DNA of 64,000 nucleotides from Bifidobacterium sp. ESL0800 (GTDB taxonomy: Bacteria > Actinomycetota > Actinomycetes > Actinomycetales > Bifidobacteriaceae): assembly GCF_029395355.1 (NCBI RefSeq), contig NZ_CP113913.1:496001-560000 (forward strand), given 5' to 3'. A model generated the notes under the pieces. The model worked only from the letters and a program-made list of their open reading frames with translations. It was not told the origin of the DNA and did no database searches. Positions 51,411-54,663 of this stretch are shown here, piece by piece (the first letter of the stretch is position 1; each line of letters starts with the position of its first letter). Made by a program: the position numbers and the translations under genes.

Positions 51411-52265
51411 TTAGAACCCGTCCTCGAAGAATTCGAGCAGGTCGGCCATCGTCAGCTTCTTCTTCTCCTCGGCGTTCAGGTCACGGACGATCTGGCCTTT
51501 TTGCAGTACGATGAGACGGTTGCCGTATTTCAAGGCGTCATCGAGGCGGTGCGTGATCATCAGACAGGTCAGTTGCTGCTCCGCGATGGTGCTGGCGGTG
51601 ATGGCCATGAGCTGCTTGGAGGTCTTCGGATCGAGAGCCGCGGTGTGCTCGTCCAAGAGCAGCAGGTCAGGTTTGGTGATGGTCGCCATGATCAGGCTCA
51701 GTGCCTGGCGTTGGCCGCCGGAAAGGTTGCCGGCCGGCGTGTTGAGATGTTCCTCGAGTCCGTTGCCGATGCCTCGGCACAGCTGAAAGAAGCGGTCGTG
51801 GTTGGGTGCCATCTCACGCATCTTCAAGCGGCGGGGTTGGCCGCGACGGGTGGCGAGCAGCAGGTTTTCGGCGACGGTCATCCGCGGCGCGGTGCCCATC
51901 TTCGGGTCCTGGAAGACACGGGCGATGTATTTGGCACGCGTCTCCTGAGAGGTCGAAGTGACGTCTTCGCCGTTCAGCAGCACGCGCCCGGTCGTAGGGT
52001 GGATGCCGCCGGCGATGATGTTGAACAGCGTCGATTTGCCCGCGCCGTTGCCGCCGAGCACAGTGATGAAATCGCCGGGTTTCACGGCGAGGTTGGCGTC
52101 GGTCAGGATCTCCTTGGTGTCGTCTATGCCGTTGTTGACCCTCACCGAGCAATGCTCGATGGCGAGACGAATGTCTTTCGGGTCGCTCACGCTTTGTGCC
52201 TCGGCAACGCTGGCAGTCAGGGCGAGGTCATCGTTGTTCGGCTTTGTCATCGTTTCGTCGTTCAT
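51411..52265 (-). CDS. ABC transporter ATP-binding protein of the TrpX-type importer
   Basis: The 284-residue ATPase powers the importer whose permease and substrate-binding protein are encoded just upstream. Walker A is VLGGNGAGKSTLFN (about 69-82), the Q loop VFQDPKMGT, the signature NLSGGQRQALSL (about 159-170), Walker B LLLLDEHTAALD (about 179-190) and the switch His in LMITHRLDD (about 215). A 35-residue polar N-terminal extension precedes the first strand. The start ATG overlaps the permease stop by four bases (52262-52265), so translation is coupled. Substrate is inferred from the binding protein and the leader peptide. Confidence 0.93.
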   Translation of the reverse strand: MNDETMTKPNNDDLALTASVAEAQSVSDPKDIRLAIEHCSVRVNNGIDDTKEILTDANLAVKPGDFITVLGGNGAGKSTLFNIIAGGIHPTTGRVLLNGEDVTSTSQETRAKYIARVFQDPKMGTAPRMTVAENLLLATRRGQPRRLKMREMAPNHDRFFQLCRGIGNGLEEHLNTPAGNLSGGQRQALSLIMATITKPDLLLLDEHTAALDPKTSKQLMAITASTIAEQQLTCLMITHRLDDALKYGNRLIVLQKGQIVRDLNAEEKKKLTMADLLEFFEDGF

Positions 52266-53191
52266 GCGTTCGCCTTTCCCTTGGTTGCCACGACGTCATT
52301 CTTCCTGAAGTATTTCTCGAAGCCGGTGGTCAGGTGCAACGCCCGCCTGAACTGGGGGATGAGCATGCACATTGAGAGCACGACCGCCGAGAAGAACTTC
52401 AGGTAGGTGGTGTCGAAACCGAGACGGATGACCAGAAGAATCAGCAGCTGGTAGATGATGCTGCCGACCACGGTGGCGAGCATGCGCTGGAAGAAGGAGA
52501 GCTCGCCGAAAAGGACCTCGCCGATGATGATGGAAGAGAGGCCGATGACGATGGTGCCCACGCCCTTGCTCACGTCGGCGTATCCGTCGTGCTGGCTGAT
52601 CAGCGCGCCGGACAGGGCGATCAGGCCGTTGGAGACCATCAGCCCCACGTTGGTCATCCGTTCGGTGTGGATGCCGAGCGATTTGGCCATGGATTCGTTG
52701 TCGCCGGTGGCGATGTAGGCCTGCCCGAATTCGGTGTTGAAGAACAGCGACATCAGGCCGATGACGATGGTCACGGCCAGCAGTCCGATGAAGACGGTGT
52801 CGTAGTTCGTCGGCAGATTGAGCGGGATGAAGACATCCTGGATCTTCGGCAGGTTCAGCAGGGAGAGATTCGGGGACTTCATGACGAAGAGCATCACCGA
52901 GTTCAACGCGCTCATCACCAGTATTCCGGCGAGGACCACGGGGATCTTGCCTTTCGTGTAGAGCAGGCCGGTCACCAGGCCCGCGCACATGCCGGCCAAA
53001 ACGCCCAGCAAAGTAGCCAGGAACGGATTGACACCAGCGGTGATGGCCGCGACGCACACCGCACCGCCCAGCGGGAACGAGCCTTCCGTGGTCATATCGG
53101 GGAAGCCCAGGATACGGTAGGTCATGAAGATACCGAGGCCGAGCATGCTCCACAGCATGCCCTGACCGATCGATGAGATGATCATGCTCAT
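52262..53191 (-). CDS. ABC transporter permease of the TrpX-type importer
   Basis: A 309-residue permease of the branched-chain-amino-acid/TrpY type with eight or nine membrane spans. The opening GQGMLWSMLGLGIFMTYRILGFPDMTTEGSFPLGGAV (about 9-45) is characteristic of permeases that pair with PF04392 (ABC_sub_bind) proteins. The EAA-like cytoplasmic loop lies near DNESMAKSLGIHTERM (about 158-173). It overlaps both flanking genes by four bases, which gives a tightly coupled three-gene operon. No homologous second permease is present, so it likely forms a homodimer. Confidence 0.92.
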   Translation of the reverse strand: MSMIISSIGQGMLWSMLGLGIFMTYRILGFPDMTTEGSFPLGGAVCVAAITAGVNPFLATLLGVLAGMCAGLVTGLLYTKGKIPVVLAGILVMSALNSVMLFVMKSPNLSLLNLPKIQDVFIPLNLPTNYDTVFIGLLAVTIVIGLMSLFFNTEFGQAYIATGDNESMAKSLGIHTERMTNVGLMVSNGLIALSGALISQHDGYADVSKGVGTIVIGLSSIIIGEVLFGELSFFQRMLATVVGSIIYQLLILLVIRLGFDTTYLKFFSAVVLSMCMLIPQFRRALHLTTGFEKYFRKNDVVATKGKANA

Positions 53192-54279
53192 TGCTTGCCG
53201 ACCTCCGTGCTGACGAGCTTGGCGCTCTTGCGCAGATTATCGGGGATGGTGATGCCGAGACGTTGCGCCTGCTCCTTGTTGATGATCGTGTCGCCGGTGG
53301 AGAACGTGTAGACCGGCATGGTGGCCGGCTTGCCCTTGCCCTTGAGGATCTGCGCGGCCATCTTGCCGGTCTGGATCCCGAGCTGGTATTGGTTGACGCC
53401 GATGGTCGCCAGTCCGCCTTGCTTGACCATCGTATCCACCGAGTTGATGACGGGACGGCCCTTCTTGTTGGCTTCCTCGGTCACCGTGGGCATGGCGTTG
53501 GCGATGGTGTTGTCGAGCGGGGTGTAGATGAAGTCGCACTTGTCGCTCATCACCTGCACGGTCTGCGCGATTTCGTTGGTCGACGGCACCGGGAATTTCT
53601 CGACATTCATGCCGAGCGCTTCGGCCGCCTTGGTGGCGGTCTTGACCTGCGACTTGGAATTGACCTCGGTGGAGGCGTAGAGCATGCCGACCGTCTTGGC
53701 CTGGGGCATCAGTTGCTTGCCGAGCTTGATTTCGGCGGCGACCGGCGGCTGGTCGGAGACGCCGGTGATGTTCTTGCCCGGTGCCTTCATATCTTTCACT
53801 AGCCCTGCCGCAACCGGATCGGTGACCGCGCCGAGCACGATCGGAGTAGTGGTGGTGGCGTTGGCCAGCGCCTGGGCGGCGGGGGTGGCGATGCCGACCA
53901 GGACGTCGGACTTCTTGTTGACCAGCTGCTCGCTCATCGTGGCGAGCTTGCTCTGGTCGGCTTGTCCGTTCTGGTCGAAGATCTGGATGTTCTTGCCGTC
54001 GACGAATCCTTCCTTCTTCAGTTCGTCGACCACGCCTTTATGAATCTGGTCCAACGCGGGATGACTGACGTATTGGAGGATGCCGACACGTTTCATACCG
54101 TTTTTCGTACCCGTCGACGACTGCACCGATTGGCTGACGGCCTTGCCGCCGGATGCCTGTTTGATGCCGGCCCGTCTGCCGAGTTCATAGGTGAACCCGC
54201 CTACGAGAATGAGGGCGATGACGACGATGGTCGCGGTCAGCGCCTTGCCGTGCGAGGTTTGGTGGTTTTCATAGCTCAT
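53188..54279 (-). CDS. trpX: ABC transporter substrate-binding protein, probable tryptophan (TrpX family)
   Basis: A 363-residue binding protein of the ABC_sub_bind (PF04392) family, whose tryptophan-linked branch is called TrpX. One N-terminal membrane segment (about 12-32) without a lipobox cysteine anchors it to the membrane. The mature part begins at MKRVGILQYVSHPALDQIHKGV (about 61-82), and VLGAVTDPVAAGLV and GVSDQPPVAAEIKL (about 140-175) are the usual ligand-cleft motifs. The ATG at 54279 is preceded by AGGAA and is chosen over frames reaching 54450 that run through the leader hairpin. Its upstream leader has a Trp-rich peptide and a terminator, which supports tryptophan as ligand; that assignment is inference. 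Confidence 0.87.
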   Translation of the reverse strand: MSYENHQTSHGKALTATIVVIALILVGGFTYELGRRAGIKQASGGKAVSQSVQSSTGTKNGMKRVGILQYVSHPALDQIHKGVVDELKKEGFVDGKNIQIFDQNGQADQSKLATMSEQLVNKKSDVLVGIATPAAQALANATTTTPIVLGAVTDPVAAGLVKDMKAPGKNITGVSDQPPVAAEIKLGKQLMPQAKTVGMLYASTEVNSKSQVKTATKAAEALGMNVEKFPVPSTNEIAQTVQVMSDKCDFIYTPLDNTIANAMPTVTEEANKKGRPVINSVDTMVKQGGLATIGVNQYQLGIQTGKMAAQILKGKGKPATMPVYTFSTGDTIINKEQAQRLGITIPDNLRKSAKLVSTEVGKQ

Positions 54280-54353
54280 AACGTTCCTGTTGCTCTTTCG
54301 ATTGGTAGGTATTGCCCACACCAAGTGAGATTGTTGCCTGTATCTAAAAATAC

Positions 54354-54381
54354 AAAAAACACCGAATAAACCACAACGGTG
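54354..54381 (-). terminator. Putative attenuator in the trpX leader
   Basis: Read on the minus strand, CACCG (54381-54377) and CGGTG (54364-54360) form a short G/C stem with a 12-base loop, followed at once by six T residues (54359-54354). It lies 113 bases after the leader-peptide stop and 75 bases before the trpX start, the right order for transcription attenuation. The stem is short. Confidence 0.55.
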
Positions 54382-54493
54382 ATTCAATCTTCCATTACGC
54401 TGCCACAATAAAACAACGGCTAGGAATGCTATGGAAACAAATGACGCCAAGGCGCGGGCACGATATTCAATTCTGGGTACTTAACAACTTGTG

Positions 54494-54550
54494 TTAGCTA
54501 CGCCAGCCACGCCAGACGAAATGCAACAGGAACCGTGATGTCGAAATCAT
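54494..54550 (-). CDS. Leader peptide with two Trp codons upstream of the TrpX-type operon
   Basis: An 18-codon frame, MISTSRFLLHFVWRGWRS then TAA, starts at the ATG at 54550. AAAGGAG (54565-54559) lies eight bases before it. The two TGG codons (54514-54512 and 54505-54503) fall within four codons of each other near the end, as expected for a ribosome-stalling leader. The bases covering the first Trp codon region (54507-54513) are complementary over seven positions, with one G-T pair, to 54451-54457 downstream, which would allow a 1:2-type pairing. An in-frame ATG at 54568 gives a 24-residue alternative. Too short for automated gene calling; the peptide itself probably has no function beyond sensing charged tRNA-Trp. 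Confidence 0.7.
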   Translation of the reverse strand: MISTSRFLLHFVWRGWRS

Positions 54551-54663
54551 ATCGACAGCTCCTTTCATTGCATCGTGAAACTCCTTTAACCATAGACATA
54601 CGGGCGGAAAACGACAAAAACGGATTCGCATAATGAGATACGGCGCTGTGAGATAATGGAGCC

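Follow-up and report, generated by a model that had tools for sequence, protein, structure and literature searches.

The trpX-permease-ATPase operon of Bifidobacterium sp. ESL0800 is preceded by a conserved leader ORF carrying two Trp codons, and modelling of the leader RNA suggests that this operon is controlled by a translational attenuator of the ermC/cat type that responds to tryptophan starvation, a reading to which we assign a probability of about 0.6. The conserved RNA feature is the pairing of leader codons with the ribosome-binding site (RBS) of trpX, which in the predicted folds points to translational attenuation. Coordinates given below refer to the window, that is, the whole 64-kb stretch of DNA analyzed, and all elements described in it are encoded on its minus strand.

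The operon encodes a substrate-binding protein (trpX, 53188-54279), a permease (52262-53191, PF02653) and an ATPase (51411-52265, PF00005), in this order and with ends overlapping head to tail, the permease gene overlapping the trpX stop and the ATPase gene the permease stop. Its initial description as a PF04392-type importer of the TrpX kind is borne out, as the product of trpX matches PF04392 and scores 445.7 bits, above the curated equivalog cut-off of 390 bits, with NF041285, the NCBIfam model of the tryptophan ABC transporter substrate-binding protein TrpX. The best relative in the PDB is 3lft (4.8e-90), described with bound tryptophan, and the TrpX protein of S. suis serves tryptophan uptake, its gene being induced by tryptophan limitation via a T-box (PMC9382623). 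Tryptophan is the likely ligand of the transporter, an assignment that is supported because leaders with Trp codons precede trpX-like genes not only in Bifidobacterium but also in a second family of the order. Tandem trpX pairs occur in five genomes (L041, L042, L043, L044 and L048), the second copy being 56-60% identical to the query. In L048 (G086:C1:903700-913700) both tandem copies are split into two frames at a shared position, about residue 85-91, representing either a sequencing error or a shared feature.

The leader ORF (54494-54550) consists of 18 codons, with the translation MISTSRFLLHFVWRGWRS followed by a stop codon, and starts 271 nt 5' of the trpX ATG (54279), leaving a gap of approximately 200 nt between the leader stop and the trpX start. 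The first-pass annotation had recognized here an 18-codon frame ending in FVWRGWRS, with two Trp codons and a good Shine-Dalgarno sequence, upstream of trpX; both the frame (54550-54494) and the Shine-Dalgarno sequence, AAAGGAG (54558-54564), were recovered, the latter being invariant across ten aligned leaders. The first Trp codon, W13 (54512-54514), is the presumed main stall site, and the second, W16, lies at 54503-54505. A predicted promoter (TTGTCG, 17 nt, TATGGT; 54589-54617), spotted by eye, would place the transcription start at about 54582. Eight of 12 relatives have a TTGnnn-N16/17-TATnnT arrangement in the corresponding position, and a stricter sigma-70 scan listed no promoter. Also, the GGAG of the leader's own Shine-Dalgarno sequence (54562-54559) can base-pair with CTCC/TTCC of leader codons 7-8 (codons 6-8 span 54535-54528), bases that also meet the trpX Shine-Dalgarno sequence; self-control of leader translation through this predicted pairing is possible.

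Close trpX relatives were detected by protein search in 12 of 112 Bifidobacterium genomes, a result matched by NF041285, which picks out these same 12 from 189 genomes examined in the family. In every one of the 12 a leader frame occurs at the same place upstream of trpX. The Trp codons, whose conservation across Bifidobacterium had been proposed as a check, are indeed retained: both are present in 11 of the 12 leaders, W16 being TGG throughout and W13 being lost only in G012. Ten of the leaders are close homologues (LHFVWRGWRS, SHFDWRGWRS and similar), and those of G050 (...SAWRCWRRYL) and G012 (...SASRFWRS, with a single Trp codon left) are diverged from them. A sequence model built from the ten close leaders, leaving out G012 and G050, retrieves its source genomes with E-values of 4e-36 to 9e-28 and scores highest, in each of the 12 genomes, at the site preceding trpX, including the two left out (5e-5 in G012 and 0.005 in G050). 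Elsewhere in the 189 family genomes no site scored better than 0.008. Codon differences among eight leader homologues are 81 synonymous versus 76 non-synonymous, a synonymous share of 52% compared with the 25% expected from random changes (pairwise counts, which are non-independent). The exclusive tie of the model to trpX and the synonymous excess indicate that the leader ORF behaves as a translated frame linked to trpX, and the presence of a leader with Trp codons upstream of the TrpX-type importer throughout the clade is supported by these comparisons. A loose DNA motif of the Trp-codon segment was also searched across the genus; it matched almost all genomes at control level and was discarded as uninformative.

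When the leader of each genome was folded, leader codons paired with the region directly 5' of trpX. In the source genome the leader segment involved (strand 1, 54512-54533; GTTCCTGTTGC, TTTCG and TGG) covers the codons before the first Trp codon, and its partner (strand 4, 54283-54305; CCAATCGAAAGAGCAACAGGAAC) is the trpX ribosome-binding region, which would be sequestered by it. Specifically, GTTCCTGTTGC (54533-54523) is the exact complement, over 11 perfect pairs, of GCAACAGGAAC (54293-54283), which contains the trpX Shine-Dalgarno sequence, and TTTCG/CGAAA and TGG/CCA extend the helix. Strand 1 was delineated with RNAduplex, RNAalifold, a comparison of own and swapped leaders and a footprint scan, and strand 4 with RNAduplex and RNAalifold. 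Among the ten closest genomes strand 4 hardly varies in most, and in G092 it has diverged. In the two outlying genomes the contact is formed with other sequences, namely TTGGTCGTTCCGCTTCG with CGAAGCAAAACGAAACCAA in G012, and CTTGG with CCAAG plus CGTTC with GAACG in G050.

Unguided RNAalifold analysis of the ten leaders joined to their RBS blocks recovered the leader:RBS helix together with two further elements. One is a hairpin around the leader stop (P2, 54473-54506; CTGG/CCAG and TAAC/GTTA), in which CTGG/CCAG is invariant and the inner stem has two pairs altered on both sides. The other is a helix between strand 2 (GCCCGCGCC, 54451-54459) and strand 3 (GGTGTGGGC, 54314-54322). Strand 3 mimics the sequence of the Trp-codon segment (TTGGCGTGGGC and TTGGCGTGGC, respectively, in most relatives), and the two mimics have as alternative partners strand 2, which can pair with either, and the RBS flank CCAATCG. 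Both folds that use the free leader strand could close the RBS, as we infer by analogy with four-strand translational attenuators. In the consensus structure 88% of the cells are paired, versus 29-47% when partners are slid by one to three columns, and five pairs are changed on both sides, a number that 7 of 500 shuffles attain. Taken by itself, the leader:RBS helix shows no more covariation among the ten close relatives than shuffles do (174 of 500 reach it), given that most of the helix is invariant among them. Following the leader stop, the stretch CCAGAATTTAATATCG (TTGAATATC in the source genome; 54476-54461) recurs at the corresponding position in nine relatives (alignment A3, columns 64-78). 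Few regions outside the ORF are as well conserved, and yet its AT-rich part is left unpaired by the consensus fold; it is possibly a site for RNase, Rho or S1.

The specificity of the leader:RBS contact was assessed in several ways. Among eight representative genomes, only 0.0005 of the arrangements with swapped leaders and RBSs match the total obtained with own partners (p ~0.0005), and the fraction is 0.017 for the five most diverged genomes. Synonymous recoding of the leader weakens the contact in 10 of the 12 genomes (p <=0.018), including the diverged G012 and G050. Other results weigh against the contact. Duplex energies compared with GC-matched RBSs stand out moderately at most, with z values of about -1.3 to -2.7 in nine genomes, a weaker value in G025 and values near zero in G012 and G088; they are not exceptional when set beside arbitrary windows taken from these loci, which are richer in GC. 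Partition function calculations including 30 nt of 5' flank showed almost no leader:RBS pairing in 6 of the 12 genomes.

The effect of a ribosome on the leader was computed assuming a footprint of 31 nt, with W13 held in the A site. In the source genome the cost of opening the trpX RBS is 10.0 kcal/mol in the free RNA, 3.3 kcal/mol with the ribosome at W13 and 12.3 kcal/mol with the ribosome at the stop codon. The ribosome at W13 lowers this cost in 11 of the 12 genomes (mean 2.7 kcal/mol), and masking of the leader lowers it in 10 of the 12. A footprint slid along the RNA has a mean effect of about -3 kcal/mol over the leader codons and of about 0 downstream of the leader, and in the source genome the effect stops sharply between W13 and W16. 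In several of the relatives, the RBS is opened equally well whether the ribosome sits at W13 or at the stop codon, so that the on/off contrast is sharp in the source genome and blurred elsewhere.

These elements can be assembled into a candidate mechanism. When Trp-tRNA is plentiful, ribosomes would run through the 18-codon leader and leave, upon which strand 1 would pair with strand 4, strands 2 and 3 being paired inside and P2 formed at the leader stop. The RBS would then be closed and trpX poorly translated at high tryptophan. When Trp-tRNA is scarce, a ribosome would pause with its A site at the first Trp codon, covering strand 1 given the usual footprint, while strands 2 and 3 occupy each other and the trpX RBS stays free. 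Stalling would thus turn the importer on, with tryptophan acting as both signal and presumed ligand and with translation, rather than transcription, as the probable step of control.

The first-pass annotation had instead drawn a classical transcription attenuator, in which a terminator-like hairpin with six T residues (54354-54381) follows the leader and bases over the Trp codons pair with a downstream segment. The latter complementarity exists (54513-54507, GGCGTGG, with 54457-54451, CCGCGCC; seven pairs, one of them G-U), and its use in the RNA is a candidate only. As for the hairpin, CACCG and CGGTG (54381-54377 with 54364-54360) can pair and six T residues follow (54359-54354), but its status as a terminator did not stand. 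Local folding prefers UGAAUCAC/GUGGUUUA (-8.2 kcal/mol), a stem set apart from the T-run, over this weak one; a terminator pattern scan does not list the hairpin, giving another weak site (54461-54444) instead; and when all 12 Bifidobacterium leaders were searched uniformly for hairpins with T residues behind them, none that was both compact and strong emerged. The hairpin was hence rejected as a conserved terminator, and of the conserved stems looked for in the relatives, it was the set described above, not the terminator stem, that emerged. The 54444-54461 hairpin was also considered as a terminator; it is weak and would form when strand 1 is masked, which is the wrong direction for an importer. 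Transcription attenuation as drawn is therefore not upheld. Its general form, in which strand 1 is covered by the stalled ribosome, strand 2 finds another partner and one of these two hairpins fails to terminate transcription, retains in its favor the T-run in the source genome and the situation in a second family, and on balance we consider it unlikely.

Order-wide and second-family searches for trpX-like genes revealed six relatives in this second family with Trp leaders. G387 and G637 carry the leader MTY(M/S)NRQWWWLA before a trpX-like gene, and G563, G629, G653 and G659 carry a leader ending in MVARWR(G/S)W(R/F)(S/G)WRSA, which resembles the Bifidobacterium leader in its TGGCG repeats and its WRS ending. 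The TrpX-like protein of G563, the sole one measured, is 41% identical. Each of the six has a compact hairpin, with T residues after it, in the interval from leader to gene, and the search that was negative in Bifidobacterium, for which these served as positive controls, returned terminators of -14 to -21 kcal/mol. By sequence, these six leaders are ordinary transcription attenuators. The synonymous-recoding signal for leader:RBS pairing is absent in five of these terminator-bearing relatives and partial in G563 (z_syn -1.98). At individual loci, L098 (2733-2625, minus strand; same place in L128) presents a textbook trp-type attenuator, with a QWWWLA leader and a strong terminator before trpX. 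In L130, L131, L132 and L133 the trpX-like gene is preceded by an MVARWRxWxxWRSA leader, which contains three Trp codons, and by a terminator; GATCG segments before and inside this terminator resemble an antiterminator pair. The second-family leaders lend further support to Trp-tRNA governing TrpX genes in the order, and Trp-sensing control of TrpX appears well supported. A broader proposal, to which we give slightly less than even odds, is that a leader lineage of the W-R-x-W...W-R-S type senses Trp-tRNA on behalf of a tryptophan importer and has had its output device swapped, being an intrinsic terminator in one actinobacterial family and sequestration of the trpX RBS in Bifidobacterium, with the coding sequence of the leader doubling as the anti-RBS strand.

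Control at the level of mRNA, with a translating or stalled ribosome protecting the transcript from Rho or RNA decay and no intrinsic terminator needed, would suit the poorly conserved spacer of about 100 nt without a terminator, and the conserved AATTTAATATC 3' of the leader stop could serve as an entry site. This Trp-dependent alternative leaves unexplained the leader:RBS complementarity and its fit in the diverged genomes, and we rate it as rather improbable. A translated upstream ORF without a sensing role, acting for instance by reinitiation that raises trpX translation or through a small functional peptide, has precedents in conserved short ORFs with other functions and in the reinitiation proposed at leader genes (PMC4833913). 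However, the roughly 200 nt separating leader stop and trpX start are far for reinitiation, and leaders of quite another make-up (WWW, WRxWxxWRS) before trpX-like genes also contain Trp codons, making such an ORF a very unlikely explanation. In favor of a chance ORF with chance pairings, short ORFs are common and the loose motif search found matches in almost every genome at control level; against this stand the conservation, the synonymous excess and the exclusive link to trpX, and coincidence is hardly credible. The translational attenuator is the preferred reading.

The source genome possesses trpA and a trp cluster. No convincing candidate for a Trp leader was found before trpE in this genome and three relatives, so that the leader looks specific to uptake. 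G012, which has trpX and lacks a trpA match, may depend on tryptophan uptake. Genus-wide, trpA (G000:C1:2127838-2128536) scores 255-270 bits in most of the trpX clade and in four further genomes, and 207-227 bits in the remainder, a split into two groups that may reflect two separate origins of the gene within Bifidobacterium. The literature searched contained no description of a Trp leader from bifidobacteria, nor of one placed before an importer. If the proposed control is true, it would be, as far as the searched literature shows, the first Trp attenuator described from bifidobacteria and the first case of a Trp leader peptide controlling an importer of this amino acid. It would also fix the likely ligand of the transporter, and would represent one sensor whose input was kept while its output switched between transcription and translation.

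Among known systems, the trp attenuators of Actinobacteria such as Corynebacterium and Streptomyces act, in the passages of PMC1262725 consulted, on trp biosynthesis or trpS, and these passages report none from Bifidobacterium. They resemble the trpX leader in having a short peptide with Trp codons and Trp-tRNA as the sensor, and have GC-rich terminators and double or triple UGG, whereas the trpX leader belongs to an uptake operon, has spaced Trp codons (W-R-G-W) and is followed by no convincing terminator. The control of TrpX described so far is a T-box (PMC9382623). The Trp T-box of streptococcal trpXYZ (PMC9382623) shares with the present case the kind of importer and induction by tryptophan limitation through tRNA charging, but reads the tRNA directly, while the trpX leader would be translated. 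An Rfam search of the window found no T-box or other element, matching only two tRNAs. Mycobacterial polycysteine leader ORFs (Canestrari 2020), cited as translation attenuation in PMC13236596, are likewise amino-acid leaders in Actinobacteria and form the precedent there for amino-acid signals; they differ in sensing Cys, in being leaderless ORFs and in preceding cysteine genes. The second-family leaders (QWWWLA in G387 and G637; ARWRxWxxWRSA in G563, G629, G653 and G659) also place Trp codons before a TrpX-type gene, and differ from those of Bifidobacterium in the strong intrinsic terminators that follow. In ermC and cat-86, a ribosome stalled on the leader masks the strand that sequesters the RBS of the next gene, and the arrest is drug-dependent. 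The parts of the trpX leader match those of this translational attenuation, the proposed signal being amino-acid starvation instead of a drug.
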